Part shown: piece by piece, positions 20,361 through 27,821 of the stretch
Layout: every line of letters begins with the position of its first letter
Position numbering within the stretch: position 1 is the stretch's first letter
Source of the DNA: Haloarcula sp. DT43
GTDB taxonomy: Archaea > Halobacteriota > Halobacteria > Halobacteriales > Haloarculaceae
NCBI RefSeq assembly: GCF_037078405.1
Contig: NZ_JAYMGZ010000002.1
Coordinates: 744,001-808,000 of the forward strand
Length of the DNA: 64,000 nt
Direction of reading: 5' to 3'
Made by a program: the position numbers and the translations under genes
The notes under the pieces: generated by a model
What the model saw: the letters and a program-made list of their open reading frames with translations, nothing else
Databases searched by the model: none
Told to the model about the DNA's origin: nothing

Positions 20361-21605
<1,245 letters not shown>

Positions 21606-21700: not shown

Positions 21701-21708
21701 TTTATTAT
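21701..21708 (+). promoter_or_regulatory. TATA box TTTATTAT of the ilvB leader
   Basis: TTTATTAT at 21701-21708. The predicted transcription start is near 21731, at the GTG-ATG that opens the leader ORF and 220 bases before ilvB. It implies that ilvB has a long structured leader, unlike most genes here, which are leaderless. Confidence 0.6.
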
Positions 21709-21733
21709 TCGGGACGAACTGCTACCGGATGTG

Positions 21734-21820
21734 ATGAGCGCGGCCGCTGGGCGTCAGGTTCGACCCCTCGCCAGCGCCGCGACCGCTATTCTCGGCGTGC
21801 GTATTGTAGGGGCCGTATAG
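21734..21820 (+). CDS. Candidate ilvB leader peptide
   Basis: A 28-codon ORF at the predicted 5' end of the ilvB transcript, starting MSAAAGRQV and ending AILGVRIVGAV. Six of the last ten residues are Ile, Leu or Val, products of the pathway. Ile is ATT twice and two Val codons are GTA, both rare in this GC3-rich genome. The TAG stop sits inside a hairpin. I see a leader-peptide layout; that it senses branched-chain aminoacyl-tRNA is inference. Confidence 0.5.
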   Translation: MSAAAGRQVRPLASAATAILGVRIVGAV

Positions 21821-21825
21821 CCCCT
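21745..21825 (+). promoter_or_regulatory. Possible attenuator structures in the ilvB leader
   Basis: CGCTGG (21745-21750) can pair with CCAGCG (21771-21776). AGGGGC (21808-21813) pairs with GCCCCT (21820-21825) around the leader stop codon with a 6-base loop. CCCCT at 21764-21768 can instead pair with AGGGG (21808-21812), so the two pairings exclude each other. No U-run follows; the next 20 bases are pyrimidine-rich. Control could therefore act on translation or stability rather than on classical termination. Confidence 0.4.
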
Positions 21826-21950
21826 CACCCTACCTTCTCACGCCCGGTCGAATCGCTTCGCCACAACACCACACAGTCACCAGTCATGCACGCAGCACAC
21901 ACATCACCGCGGTATCGAGCCAGAGCGCGAACAGCCGGAGGGACGACGCG

Positions 21951-23705
21951 ATGAGCGAACGCGCATCCGTCCCCAAGGAAGACGAATCGGCGGCAGAATC
22001 GGAACAGGAACCGGTCACGACGGGTGCGCAGTCGGTCATCCGCGCCCTGGAAAACGCCGGGACCGACTACGTCTTCGGCGTCCAGGGCGGCGCTATCATG
22101 CCGGTCTACGACGCGCTGTACGACTCCGACATCAACCACGTCACGATGGCCCACGAGCAGGGGGCCTCCCACGCCGCGGACGCGTACGGCATCGTCACCG
22201 GCGACCCCGGCGTCTGTTTCGCCACGTCTGGGCCCGGGGCGACGAACCTCGTGACCGGCATCGCCGACGCCAACATGGACTCGGACCCGGTCATCGCCCT
22301 GACCGGCCAGGTCCCGACGGAGTTCGTCGGCAACGACGCCTTCCAAGAGACCGACACGGTGGGCATCACCCAGCCTATCACGAAGGAGAGCTACTTCGCT
22401 TCCGACCCGGACACCGTCGGCGACGACGTCAGCGAGGCGTTCGCGCTCGCCGACGCCGGCCGGCAGGGGCCGACGCTCGTCGACCTGCCCAAGGACGTGA
22501 CCCAGGGCGACACCGAGGTCGAACCCGGCACGCCACAGACGCCGGAGACCTACGACGTGCCCGAAGAGGCCGACGACGCGGATGTCCAGGAGGCCGCCGA
22601 GGCGCTTGCCGAAGCCGACCGGCCGGTCATCCTCTCGGGCGGCGGCGTCATCAAGGCCAACGCCTCGAACGCGCTCCGGGAGTTCGCCATGGAGTACGAG
22701 GTTCCGGTCATCACGACGATGCCCGGCATCGGCTCCTTCCCCGAGGACCACGAACTCTCGCTGGAGTGGGCCGGGATGCACGGCACCGGCTACGCCAACC
22801 TGGCGATTACCAACACCGACTGCATGCTGGCCATCGGGACGCGCTTCGACGACCGCCTGACCGGCGGCGTCGACTCCTTTGCCCCGGACGCGGAGGTCAT
22901 CCACGTCGACATCGACCCCGCCGAAATCAGCAAGAACGTCTACGCCGACTACCCGCTGGTCGGGGACGCCCGCGAAGTGCTCCGCCAGCTGTTCGACGCG
23001 ATGCCGCGCGCGCCCGACGCCGACGAGTGGCGCGAGCAGTGCCAGGAGTGGAAGTCGGAGTACCCGATGACCTACGACACGCCCGACGACGAGCCGCTCA
23101 AGCCCCAGTACGTCGTCGAGACGTTCTCCGACATGACGCCGGACGACACCATCGTCTGTACCGGCGTCGGCCAGCACCAGATGTGGGCCTCCCAGTTCTG
23201 GGAGTACACCGAGCCCCGGACGTGGGTGTCCTCGCACGGGCTGGGGACGATGGGCTACGGCGTGCCCGCCGCCATCGGCGCGAAACTGGCCGCCCCGGAC
23301 CAGGAGGTCGTCTGCTTCGACGGCGACGGCTCGTTCCTGATGACCGTCCAGGGCCTCTCGGTCGCGGTGCGCGAGCAGCTCGATATCACCTACGTCGTCC
23401 TCAACAACGAGGCGGTCGGGATGGTTCGCCAGTGGCAGGACGGCTTCTACGAGGGCCGCCGGATGGCCTCGGAGTACCCGTGGATTCCGCAGTTCGACAA
23501 GCTCGCCGAGGCCTTCGGCGCGCGCGGGTTCACGCTCGAATCCCACGACAACGTCGAGGAAACGATACAGGAAGCACGCGAGTACGACGGGCCGAGCGTC
23601 ATCGACGCTCACATCGACCCCGGGGAGAACGTCTTCCCGATGGTCCCGAGCGGCGGCGACAACGGCCTGTTCGCGCTCAACGAAGCCCAGCTGGACATGA
23701 TATAA
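21951..23705 (+). CDS. ilvB: Acetolactate synthase catalytic subunit
   Basis: 584 residues, full length. A thiamine-diphosphate enzyme that condenses two pyruvates to acetolactate, or pyruvate with 2-oxobutyrate. The catalytic Glu is E69 in MAHEQGASHA. The ThDP/Mg motif starts at GDGSFLMT and ends with NN about 27 residues later (VVLNNEAVGM). The first 20 residues are an acidic haloarchaeal extension. Two bases separate it from ilvN; the pair is an operon. Its leader carries the candidate leader peptide. Confidence 0.97.
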   Translation: MSERASVPKEDESAAESEQEPVTTGAQSVIRALENAGTDYVFGVQGGAIMPVYDALYDSDINHVTMAHEQGASHAADAYGIVTGDPGVCFATSGPGATNLVTGIADANMDSDPVIALTGQVPTEFVGNDAFQETDTVGITQPITKESYFASDPDTVGDDVSEAFALADAGRQGPTLVDLPKDVTQGDTEVEPGTPQTPETYDVPEEADDADVQEAAEALAEADRPVILSGGGVIKANASNALREFAMEYEVPVITTMPGIGSFPEDHELSLEWAGMHGTGYANLAITNTDCMLAIGTRFDDRLTGGVDSFAPDAEVIHVDIDPAEISKNVYADYPLVGDAREVLRQLFDAMPRAPDADEWREQCQEWKSEYPMTYDTPDDEPLKPQYVVETFSDMTPDDTIVCTGVGQHQMWASQFWEYTEPRTWVSSHGLGTMGYGVPAAIGAKLAAPDQEVVCFDGDGSFLMTVQGLSVAVREQLDITYVVLNNEAVGMVRQWQDGFYEGRRMASEYPWIPQFDKLAEAFGARGFTLESHDNVEETIQEAREYDGPSVIDAHIDPGENVFPMVPSGGDNGLFALNEAQLDMI

Positions 23706-23707
23706 CA

Positions 23708-24307
23708 ATGACTGGAGGAATGCCAGGCCCCACGCCGGACGAACGGATGCGCCCGAAGGGCCGACGCAACACGCAGGGTATCCGCGTCGACCCCGAGGCC
23801 GAAGTGACCCACGAACCGCGACAGGCAGTGCTGTCGGCCCTGGTCAAACACCGACCGGGCGTCCTCTCGGAGGTGTCGGCGCTGTTCAGCCGCCGGCAGT
23901 TCAACATCGAAAGCCTCACTGTCGGGCCAACAGTCGACGAGGACACGGCCCGGATGACGATCCTCATCGAGGAGCCGGAACCGGGGATCGACCAGGCGAA
24001 AAAGCAACTGCGGAAGCTCGTGCCCGTCATCTCGGTCAGCGAACTCGAAGGCGGGGCTGTCCGCCGAGAGCTCGCGCTGGTGAAGGTCAGCGGCGAGAAG
24101 CCCGACGACGTCAACGCCGTCGCCGACATGTACAACGGGCAGGCCGTCGACGCGTCGACCGACTCCGTCACCGTCGAAATCACGGGCAGCAAGCAGAAGA
24201 TAGACGCCGCCATCGAGGCGTTCAAGCAGTTCGACGTGCAGGAAATCGTGCGAACCGGGGCCGCCGCACTGGAACGCGGCCCGAACACACTAGAGAAAGA
24301 TGTCTGA
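23708..24307 (+). CDS. ilvN: Acetolactate synthase regulatory subunit
   Basis: 199 residues: an N-terminal polar extension, then an ACT domain ([30 protein letters not shown], about residues 40-70), then the C-terminal small-subunit domain. It binds valine or another end product and activates IlvB. Two bases after ilvB, and its end overlaps ilvC by 8 bases (ATG at 24300), so translation is coupled. Confidence 0.95.
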
Positions 24308-25331
24308 CGAATTCACGACGACAGTCTACTACGACGACGACGCCGACGTATCGACACTCGACGACGAGACCGTAGCCGTACTCGGCTACGGGTCACAGGG
24401 CCACGCCCACGCGCTGAACCTCCACGAGTCAGGCGTGGACGTGGTCGTCGGCCTCCGGGAGGACTCGGCTTCCTGGGCCGACGCCGAGGACGCCGGCCTC
24501 CGTGTCGAGACCCCCGACGTGGCCGCCCGCGAGGCCGATCGCGTCGTCATGCTCGTCCCGGACACGGTCCAGCCGTTCGTGTACGAGGCCATCGAGGACG
24601 AACTCGACGCCGGCGACACGCTCCAGTTCGCCCACGGCTTCAACATCCACTACGGCCAGATAGAGCCGCCGGAAGACGTGGACGTGACGATGGTCGCGCC
24701 GAAGTCCCCCGGCCACCTCGTGCGCCGGACCTACGAGCGCGGCGAGGGGACGCCCGGCCTCATCGCGGTGTATCAGGACGCGACCGGCGACGCGAAGGAA
24801 GAGTCCCTGGCCTACGCGAAGGGCATCGGCTGCACCCGCGCCGGCGTCATCGAGACGACCTTTCAGGAGGAGGTCGAGACGGACCTCTTCGGCGAGCAGG
24901 CCGTCCTCTGTGGCGGCGTCACCGAGATGGTCAAGGTCGGCTTCGAGACGCTGGTCGACGCCGGCTACGCGCCGGAGATGGCCTACTTCGAGTGTCTGAA
25001 CGAGCTCAAGCTCATCGTCGACCTGATGTACGAGGGCGGTCACATGGGGATGTGGAACTCCGTCTCCGACACCGCGGAGTACGGCGGCCTGACCCGCGGC
25101 GAGGAGGTCATCGACCGCGAGGGGATGGAGAGCATACTCGAAGAGGTCCAGAACGGCGAGTTCGCCCGCGAGTGGATCAACGAGAACCAGGCCAACCGGC
25201 CCGCCTACAAGCAGTACCGCGACGCCGAACAGCACCACCAGATAGAGGAAGTCGGCGGCCGCCTGCGCGAGCTGTTCGCGTGGGGCGAGGACGCCGACGC
25301 AGAGAAGACAGAAGCCCCAGCAGATGACTAA
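24300..25331 (+). CDS. ilvC: Ketol-acid reductoisomerase, class I
   Basis: 343 residues, the short class I form. Isomerises and reduces acetolactate with NADPH and Mg. The Rossmann motif is [15 protein letters not shown]. The metal-binding residues lie in [16 protein letters not shown] (Asp and Glu) and the later YFECLNELK. The C-terminus ends in an acidic tail. Coupled to ilvN by overlap and to the next small gene by an 8-base overlap. Confidence 0.97.
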
Positions 25332-25660: not shown

Positions 25661-27082
25661 ATGAGCCAGGGAACGCTGTACGACAAGGTCTGGGACCGGC
25701 ACAAAGTCACGACCCTGCCGAACGGACAGGACCAGCTGTTCGTCGGCCTGCACCTCATCCACGAGGTCACCAGCCCGCAGGCCTTTGGCATGCTCAAAGA
25801 GCGCGGCCTCGAAGTCGCGCGCCCGGACCTGACCCACGCGACGGTCGACCACATCGTCCCGACCGCGAACCAGGACCGGCCCTACGCTGACGACGCGGCC
25901 GAGACGATGATGTCGGAACTGGAGGAGAACGTCCGCGACGCCGGCATCCAGTTCTCGGACCCGACGACGGGCGACCAGGGCATCGTCCACGTCATCGGCC
26001 CGGAACAGGGCATCACCCAGCCCGGCAAGACCATCGTCTGTGGCGACAGCCACACCTCGACCCACGGCGCCTTCGGCGCGCTCGCGTTCGGTATCGGGAC
26101 CAGCCAGATTCGGGACGTGCTGGCTACCCAGACCATCGCGATGGAGAAACAGAAGGTCCGCAAAATCGAGGTCACCGGCGAGCTCGACGAGGGCGTCGAG
26201 GCCAAGGACATCATCCTCGAAATCATCCGCCGGCTCGGCACCGAGGGCGGCGTCGGCTACGTCTACGAGTACGCCGGCGAGACCATCGAGAACCTCGACA
26301 TGGAGGGGCGGATGTCCATCTGTAACATGTCCATCGAGGGCGGCGCTCGCGCGGGCTACGTCAACCCCGACGAGACCACCTATGAGTGGCTGGAAGAGAC
26401 CGATTACTTCCAGGAGCACCCCGAGAAGTTCGAGGAGCTCAAGCCCTACTGGGAGTCCATCCGCTCGGACGAGGACGCGGAGTACGACGACGTGGTCGAA
26501 ATCGACGCCGGCGAACTGGACCCCGTCGTCACCTGGGGGACCACGCCCGGACAGGGCATCGGCATCGACGACCCCATCCCGGCCCCCGAGGACCTGGCCG
26601 ACGACAAGCAAGACACCGCACGGCGCGCACAGAAGCACATGCGCGTCGAGCCCGGCCAGACCATGGAAGGCTACGACATCGACGTGGCCTTCCTGGGCTC
26701 GTGTACGAACGCCCGACTGCCCGACCTGCGACGGGCGGCCCGCATCGTCAAGGGGCGACAGGTCGTCGACGACGTGCGCGCGTTCGTTGTCCCCGGCAGC
26801 CAGCGCGTCCAGCGCGCCGCCGAGGAAGAGGGCCTGAAGGCCATCTTCGAGGAAGCCGGCTTCGAGTGGCGAAACGCCGGCTGTTCGATGTGTCTGGGTA
26901 TGAACGAGGACCAGCTGGAGGGCGACGAGGCCTGTGCCTCCTCCTCGAACCGGAACTTCGTCGGCCGGCAGGGCAGCAAGGACGGGCGCACCGTCCTGAT
27001 GAACCCCCGGATGGTCGCCGCGGCGGCCATCACTGGCGAGGTCGCTGACGTGCGCGACCTGAAGGAGGTGGCGCTGCAATGA
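25661..27082 (+). CDS. leuC: 3-isopropylmalate dehydratase large subunit
   Basis: 473 residues, the aconitase-type large subunit of isopropylmalate isomerase. The 4Fe-4S cysteines are in [10 protein letters not shown] and [10 protein letters not shown]. The motif [16 protein letters not shown] lies early. Acts with LeuD to convert 2- to 3-isopropylmalate. The start at 25661 follows a short spacer after the small acidic gene. A 94-base spacer with two hairpins separates it from leuD. Confidence 0.96.
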
Positions 27083-27176: not shown

Positions 27177-27821
27177 ATGAGCGACGCGACCGAGGAGATT
27201 CCGGAGGTCGACTACGTCGAGGGGACCGGCATCCCCATCCGCGGGAACGACATCGACACGGACCAGATAATCCCTGCGCGGTTCATGAAGGTCGTCACCT
27301 TCGACGGCCTGGGCGAGTTCGCGTTCTTCGATGTCCGCTTCGACGACGACGACAATCAGAAGGACCACCCGATGAACGAGGAGCGGTTCCAGGACGCCAA
27401 CGTCATGGTGGTCAACAACAACTTCGGCTGTGGCTCCTCGCGCGAGCACGCTCCGCAGGCGCTCATGCGCTGGGGCATCGACGCTATCATCGGCGAAGGC
27501 TTCGCCGAGATTTTCGCCGGGAACTGCCTGGCGCTCGGCATCCCGACCGTCACCGCCGACCACGAGACCATCAACGCGCTCCAGCAGTGGGTCGACGACA
27601 ACCCCGACGGGGACATCGAAGTCGACGTGGCGGCCGAGACCGTCCGCTACGGCGGCAACGAGGTCTCCGTCAGCGTCGACGACGCCCAGCGGCAGGCCCT
27701 CGTCGAGGGCATCTGGGACACGACGGCGCTGATGAAGGCAAACCGCAACGCCATCGAGGAGACGGCGGCGCAGTTACCGTATCTCGACCAGACGCGGTCG
27801 GATATCGAAGCGGACGACTAG
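27177..27821 (+). CDS. leuD: 3-isopropylmalate dehydratase small subunit
   Basis: 214 residues, the swivel subunit of isopropylmalate isomerase: GNDIDTDQIIPARFM near residue 23 and NNNFGCGSSREHAPQAL, the substrate-binding loop. It completes LeuC. The Gly-rich and Asp-rich loops match archaeal LeuD of this size. Preceded by two hairpins that may control the LeuC:LeuD ratio. Confidence 0.95.
   Translation: MSDATEEIPEVDYVEGTGIPIRGNDIDTDQIIPARFMKVVTFDGLGEFAFFDVRFDDDDNQKDHPMNEERFQDANVMVVNNNFGCGSSREHAPQALMRWGIDAIIGEGFAEIFAGNCLALGIPTVTADHETINALQQWVDDNPDGDIEVDVAAETVRYGGNEVSVSVDDAQRQALVEGIWDTTALMKANRNAIEETAAQLPYLDQTRSDIEADD

Follow-up and report, generated by a model that had tools for sequence, protein, structure and literature searches.

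Sensing of an amino acid by a ribosome stalled on a leader ORF is a textbook mechanism in Bacteria, and the enteric ilvBN and ilvGMEDA operons are controlled in this manner by leader-peptide attenuators, through ribosome-mediated attenuation of transcription. The haloarchaeal leader described here resembles these enteric leaders in that a short ORF with Ile, Val and Leu codons precedes the same enzyme gene, a hairpin lies at the end of the leader and sensing of tRNA charging is presumed. It differs from them in being located on a leaderless mRNA with an archaeal TATA box, in carrying two putative regulatory codons instead of codon runs, in having no U-tract terminator, in the conserved second ORF (uORF2) that is apparently coupled to ilvB, and in the occurrence of the element before valS as well. 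In the T-box regulons of Firmicutes, the ilv genes and valS are likewise paired under the control of valine tRNA charging; however, a T-box RNA binds the tRNA directly and no leader peptide is translated, and there was no T-box match at the ilvB leader. To our knowledge, no amino-acid-sensing leader peptide has been published for an archaeon. A literature search returned bacterial parallels and no leader-peptide regulation in Archaea; the ribosome-profiling papers on Haloferax were outside its reach, and prior notice in them is possible.

The ilvB leaders of actinobacteria (PMC1262725) and the attenuator of ilvBNC in C. glutamicum (PMC11857589) also have an ORF with Ile, Val and Leu codons that overlaps a hairpin before ilvB, but their hairpin is followed by poly-U and the haloarchaeal one is not. 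In S. coelicolor, changes of the leader codons had no effect on regulation (PMC1262725), which is a warning for the haloarchaeal leader too. In the LEU element of actinobacterial leuA, codons of the leader form base pairs around the start of translation of leuA, comparable to one of the valS leaders below (type B), whereas a pseudoknot, leucine and a Shine-Dalgarno (SD) site are involved there and a simple stem 5' of valS in type B (PMC1262725). Mycobacteria have leaderless short ORFs as well, the polycysteine ORFs (Canestrari et al. 2020, cited in PMC9031893), in which the codons for a single amino acid control the genes that follow; these are bacterial and use runs of cysteine codons, unlike the haloarchaeal leaders with their valine codon (GTA) and stop hairpin.

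From a comparison of sequences across the class, we suggest that the ORF before haloarchaeal ilvB is very probably a translated, amino-acid-sensing leader. It is likely, at a lower level of confidence, that this leaderless leader peptide senses the charging of tRNA-Val, with Ile as a second input at ilvB, and so sets the expression of ilvBNC-leuCD.

Loci and searches

The window is a stretch of 64,000 nucleotides from contig NZ_JAYMGZ010000002.1 of Haloarcula sp. DT43, which has a genome of 3.75 Mb. By protein match, ilvB was located in all genomes but one, both in the genus (31 of 32) and in the class (291 of 292). Upstream DNA was sampled by ilvB alone, at 30 loci of the genus and 75 from other genera, and the leader was sought afterwards. 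The 105 sampled loci represent 44 genera and 10 families, and per-genus statistics refer to 43 genera. An exact leader pattern was scanned against 84,980 species genomes and returned 118 stretches.

The ilvB locus of Haloarcula sp. DT43

The following features, all on the + strand, were recognized in the window:

21701-21708, + strand: TATA-like promoter element of the leader transcript, TTTATTAT
21734-21820, + strand: uORF1, leaderless leader peptide of 28 aa
21803-21808, + strand: putative regulatory codons ATT (Ile) and GTA (Val), of which GTA is the invariant one and common to the valS leaders
21809-21824, + strand: hairpin GGGGC/GCCCC with conserved stem, holding the stop codon
21825-21849, + strand: G-poor, pyrimidine-rich stretch
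21845-21859, + strand: conserved box, YCGG..TTCGYAYCGNTTTC
21886-21954, + strand: uORF2, 22 aa (MHAAHTSPRYRARARTAGGTTR, then stop), with its TGA overlapping the ilvB ATG (ATGA)
21937-21942, + strand: GGAGGG, SD-like site of ilvB inside uORF2
21951-23705, + strand: ilvB, acetolactate synthase large subunit (from the ORF list and a class-wide protein match)
Downstream of ilvB, + strand: presumed ilvN, ilvC (24300-25331), leuC (25661-27082) and leuD (27177-27821)

The last four genes are named from their translations and from the known pathway. The translation of uORF1 is MSAAAGRQVRPLASAATAILGVRIVGAV followed by the stop; it begins at ATG 21734, and GTG 21731 is a possible alternative start. A preliminary description of this DNA had claimed a 28-codon ORF with six Ile, Leu or Val among its last ten residues, and this can be read directly in the sequence (ILGVRIVGAV). 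The codons are ATT at 21803-21805, GTA at 21806-21808 and again at 21815-21817, and the stop TAG at 21818-21820. The TAG had been placed inside a hairpin, and indeed AGGGGC (21808-21813) can pair with GCCCCT (21820-21825). The coordinates of that description are all correct, including the box at 21701, the start near 21731, the ORF, the hairpin arms, a CCCCT strand and the distance to ilvB, the ATG of which (21951) lies 130 nt past the uORF1 stop.

Conservation of the leader

The leader ORF is both genuine and ancient: in the sample, which was selected by ilvB, it precedes 102 of the 105 haloarchaeal loci. Persistence of a small ORF in relatives had been proposed as a check, and both the ORF and its codons turned out to be conserved. 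One exception (L054) is a second ilvB copy with a leader ending FVGAA before the stop; the other two (L080 and L101) belong to one genus and have a diverged leader that ends SIRVRAAPAH and a GGGCC/GGCCC hairpin. The tail is Ile-Val-Gly-Ala, with the ending IVGA(X) or IVGV before the stop, and is spelled AT[T/C]-GTA-GGG-GC or -GT. AT[T/C]-GTA is found everywhere except in L054 (TTC-GTA), in L096 (GTA-GTA) and in the diverged genus g18. Second ilvB copies have their own versions of the leader, L120 (LLGVIVGAF) and L135 (IIVGA) in addition to L054.

With a covariance model built on tail and hairpin, matches were found in 51 of 56 genomes of the class, and nothing convincing among about 190 other genomes of the phylum. 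The best match outside the class was at 5.6e-4, and two that were inspected (L136 and L137) were rejected for not lying upstream of ilvB or valS. The matches listed by the pattern scan were all haloarchaeal (80 of 80): 74 stood before ilvB, five were truncated at contig ends and the remaining one (L274) was a miscall by the regular expression. The closest leaders among these listed matches were from Haloarcula species. The generic pattern GGGGCNNNNTAGCCCC, with one mismatch allowed, occurred at background level in 12 genomes. Searches of NCBIfam and Rfam gave no match for the leader, and no Rfam score was near the threshold, T-box included.

Transcript start and uORF2

Averaged over 43 genera, the AT content has a peak (86%) at -32 to -27 from the leader ATG, where a TATA-like box is located about 30 nt before the ATG, and such a peak is absent before ilvB or uORF2. 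Because the peak occurs only before uORF1, transcription is expected to begin at uORF1 or in its close vicinity, and ilvB should not itself be leaderless. The start that we infer coincides with the uORF1 ATG or lies only a few bases from it. Transcription from the ilvB ATG, which would have spoken against the preliminary description, is not indicated, as far as can be judged from the DNA itself. It appears that a short ORF lies upstream of ilvB on the same transcript, as leader-peptide regulation requires.

The preliminary description missed uORF2. The ATG that comes first downstream of uORF1 is in the uORF2 phase in 75 of 83 loci, and all 75 of these ORFs end at ATGA; in the other loci it is in the other out-of-frame phase, and in none of the 83 is it in the ilvB frame. 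The phase and the ATGA overlap suggest that uORF2 is translationally coupled with ilvB. A G-rich site like the GGAGGG read in the DT43 sequence is present in most relatives.

Two designs of leader before valS

In many genomes the leader element, as matched by the covariance model, is also found upstream of a second locus, the gene for valyl-tRNA synthetase (IDTPPPTVSG and HMGH in its product). Of 54 valS genes of this type (type A), 29 are outside family f4, and 28 of these 29 have the element. No leader was seen before the type-A valS of family f4 (L154 and others), which has a plain leaderless look. The ilvB of this family keeps its leader, though its type-A valS lost or never had one. The type-A leaders keep GTA and lose the Ile codon (VFVGA, VVGA, VRVGA), with the same GTA-GGG-GC tail and hairpin. 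Codons for the end product in this way stand directly before the hairpin, Ile-Val at ilvB and Val at valS, as would be needed for a leader peptide. Replacement of Ile before valS would be expected of a codon whose role depends on the amino acid that it encodes.

The starts of ileS (15 genomes) and leuS (4 genomes) are plainly leaderless and have no leader, so the element follows valine and not branched-chain genes in general. No comparable leader was found upstream of trpB, where short ORFs with at least two Trp codons were sought. Since GTA is kept at valS, the Ile codon is lost there and a leader is missing at ileS and leuS, the signal that the leaders have in common is GTA, a codon for valine. 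The original idea of a generic sensor for Ile, Leu and Val is not supported.

An unrelated type of valS (type B, 40-44% identity to type A) has a different leader. In 15 of 16 genes (L192-L207) it is a leaderless ORF of 9-14 residues, M..VVR.. before the stop, with an invariant tandem GTA GTA, and most of these leaders begin 30 nt after a TATA-like box. The leader RNA is calculated to pair with the segment just 5' of valS, at -20.5 kcal/mol for cognate versus -17.7 kcal/mol for permuted combinations (p=0.001, one sequence per genus, 11 genera). Such predicted pairing of a leader arm before the valS start is what a translational attenuator calls for. If a ribosome paused on GTA GTA, the 5' arm would be covered and the valS start freed. 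The type-B leader is the clearest mechanism in our data.

The stop hairpin and a proposed mechanism

Among the 102 ilvB leaders, the five-pair stem of the hairpin is perfect in 96 and has four pairs in the other six, and across the loci the hairpin holds or touches the stop codon of uORF1. GGGGC/GCCCC has a mean pairing probability of about 0.85, and a compensated double change, GGGCC/GGCCC, is found at ilvB of g18 and in two valS leaders. RNAalifold on a MAFFT alignment gave an empty structure and was uninformative. An alternative strand, CCCCT at 21764-21768, had been proposed to switch the pairing; it is present in only 3 of 43 genera and is thus not conserved.

About 45-59 nt past the ATT codon, the conserved box is found in 40 genera. 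Pairing of the leader (-12 to +6) with this box is better for cognate sequences (p=0.001, with several windows tried and the genomes being related), and the stem between tail and box has, in the most favourable of the windows tried, a z of about -3.4, uncorrected for relatedness. These values are suggestive of a longer stem in which the leader tail is paired with 21845-21859. For pairing of the leader with the ilvB start region, cognate sequences were no better than permuted ones, and an averaged hint of pairing with ilvB +3 to +9 was lost in this comparison. As such pairing is unsupported, the control would have to act through uORF2. An effect of the short hairpin on initiation at uORF2 or ilvB is our proposal.

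The elements brought out by the comparison (promoter position, ORF, rare codons, stop hairpin, uORF2 overlap and the GTA element common to valS) may work together as follows, by analogy with the type-B valS leader, from which the logic is carried over. With transcription starting at or near the uORF1 ATG, a ribosome would read every transcript at once. When charged tRNA-Val(UAC) is ample, it would pass ATT-GTA, stop at TAG and leave; the GGGGC/GCCCC hairpin, and perhaps the longer tail-box stem, would then close and initiation at uORF2 and ilvB would stay low. When Val-tRNA is scarce, the ribosome would wait while its A site is occupied by ATT or GTA, and the 5' arm would lie under its footprint (about -15 to +12), leaving the stem open and allowing downstream initiation to rise. 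Ribosomes on uORF2 would be passed to ilvB by ATGA coupling. The stalling, the direction of the response and the placing of control at translation rather than at transcription are what we infer, and for the translational route in this form we consider the chances to be evenly balanced.

Stall-dependent control of downstream translation seems to fit better than classical transcription attenuation. No conserved U-tract follows the hairpin, and 25 of 43 genera lack a run of four T within 60 nt; this indicates that there is no intrinsic terminator, and a classical terminator/antiterminator is not supported. Alternatively, the ribosome on the leader could decide whether the polymerase stops through a factor like FttA/aCPSF1 acting on untranslated C/U-rich RNA. 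The stretch at 21825-21849 (C 43%, T 27%, A 18% and G 12% over the loci) would suit such a factor, as would the coupling of transcription and translation in archaea. In addition, enteric and actinobacterial ilv leaders act, or are predicted to act, on transcription (PMC1262725). The lack of the U-tract, however, also weighs against this type of attenuation, and the coupling of uORF2 and the sequestered start of type-B valS point to translation, so we regard it as rather unlikely.

Is uORF1 read by ribosomes?

The ATGs in the zone from -100 to -40 are distributed 128:10:9 over the frames, with the majority in frame, and an in-frame leader ATG exists in 43 of 43 genera. The frame of uORF1 is open in every case, and one of the other two frames is interrupted by stops in 86 of 102. 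In the nine codons before Ile-Val, Ile, Leu and Val account for 31% in frame versus 17% and 5% in the other frames. Of the leader Ile codons, 69% are ATT, versus 6% in ilvB, ilvC, leuC and leuD of the window, and of the leader Val codons 41% are GTA, versus 2% in these genes, in line with the earlier statement that rare codons are used at these sites. The stop may be TAG, TAA or TGA, and the loop length shifts by 3 nt such that the stop stays in frame.

The near-neutral peptide body is the weak point of the coding argument. Within the genus no purifying selection on the body was detected, the pN/pS being about 0.9 and equal in shifted frames, which means that constraint is limited to the tail and to keeping the frame open. 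A freely changing body is the expectation for a leader that is valued for a few codons. A pN/pS near 1, together with an inverted repeat and an 11-nt core that is nearly invariant even at synonymous sites, would also be consistent with a structured RNA or a protein-binding site (a metabolite riboswitch or a repressor operator) that spells an ORF by accident. This is improbable in view of the ATG phase, the loop steps of three with the stop kept and the Ile/Val swap in L096, as well as the Val-only valS leaders, the second design with only GTA codons in common and the lack of an Rfam match near the threshold. It is equally improbable that the two uORFs are of the ordinary kind and damp ilvB translation without amino-acid sensing, even with the richness of haloarchaea in leaderless transcripts and in 5' UTRs without SD function described in PMC3986360, as this leaves unexplained the invariant GTA, the rare ATT, the restriction to ilvB and valS and the absence at ileS and leuS.

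Returning to the translated leader, we find that the earlier interpretation stands in its conserved leaderless ORF and in the rare Ile and Val codons by the stop hairpin, and is not supported in its CCCCT switch, generic sensor and terminator. The part that stands implies that tRNA charging may be sensed by the ribosome.

The start of leuA

Located 5' of ilvB in the same cluster, leuA (20387-20461 and 20427 onward in the window) has no usable in-frame start codon. This is true of 68 of 68 haloarchaeal leuA genes, which have an invariant block, TCGAGTTCTTCCAGGG, where reading must shift by +1. In all 68, a well-placed ATG preceded by a strong TATA box stands 43-52 nt upstream of FFQGT in the wrong frame, and frame 0 terminates 20-32 nt after FF begins. 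The arrangement suggests a +1 frameshift at GTT-CTT-C throughout the class. A sequencing frameshift was dismissed because the arrangement is conserved in relatives, and an in-frame CTG in only 33 of 68 genes argues against a CTG start. The start of leuA2 (HVO_1510) has been listed as an open problem, with speculation about slippage and leucine control (PMC8305020). The apparent frameshift is in keeping with the ribosome-based control suggested for ilvB and valS.

Significance

Haloferax volcanii has a known ilvB1 (HVO_1508), and auxotrophs of this species are available (PMC4300041). A class-wide case defined by sequence, with two targets, two designs and predictions for individual codons, is testable in this species. 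Leaderless initiation would gain a role, because a start codon at the 5' end would load the ribosome before downstream structure forms. We tentatively suggest, as a possibility somewhat short of even, that the branched-chain set is ruled by the ribosome on its own messages, by stalling at GTA in ilvB and valS (in two independent designs) and by the leuA2 frameshift at a rare leucine codon. If this is true, the haloarchaea would have an archaeal tRNA-charging regulon, an analogue of the bacterial T-box and leader-peptide regulons that evolved on leaderless mRNA.
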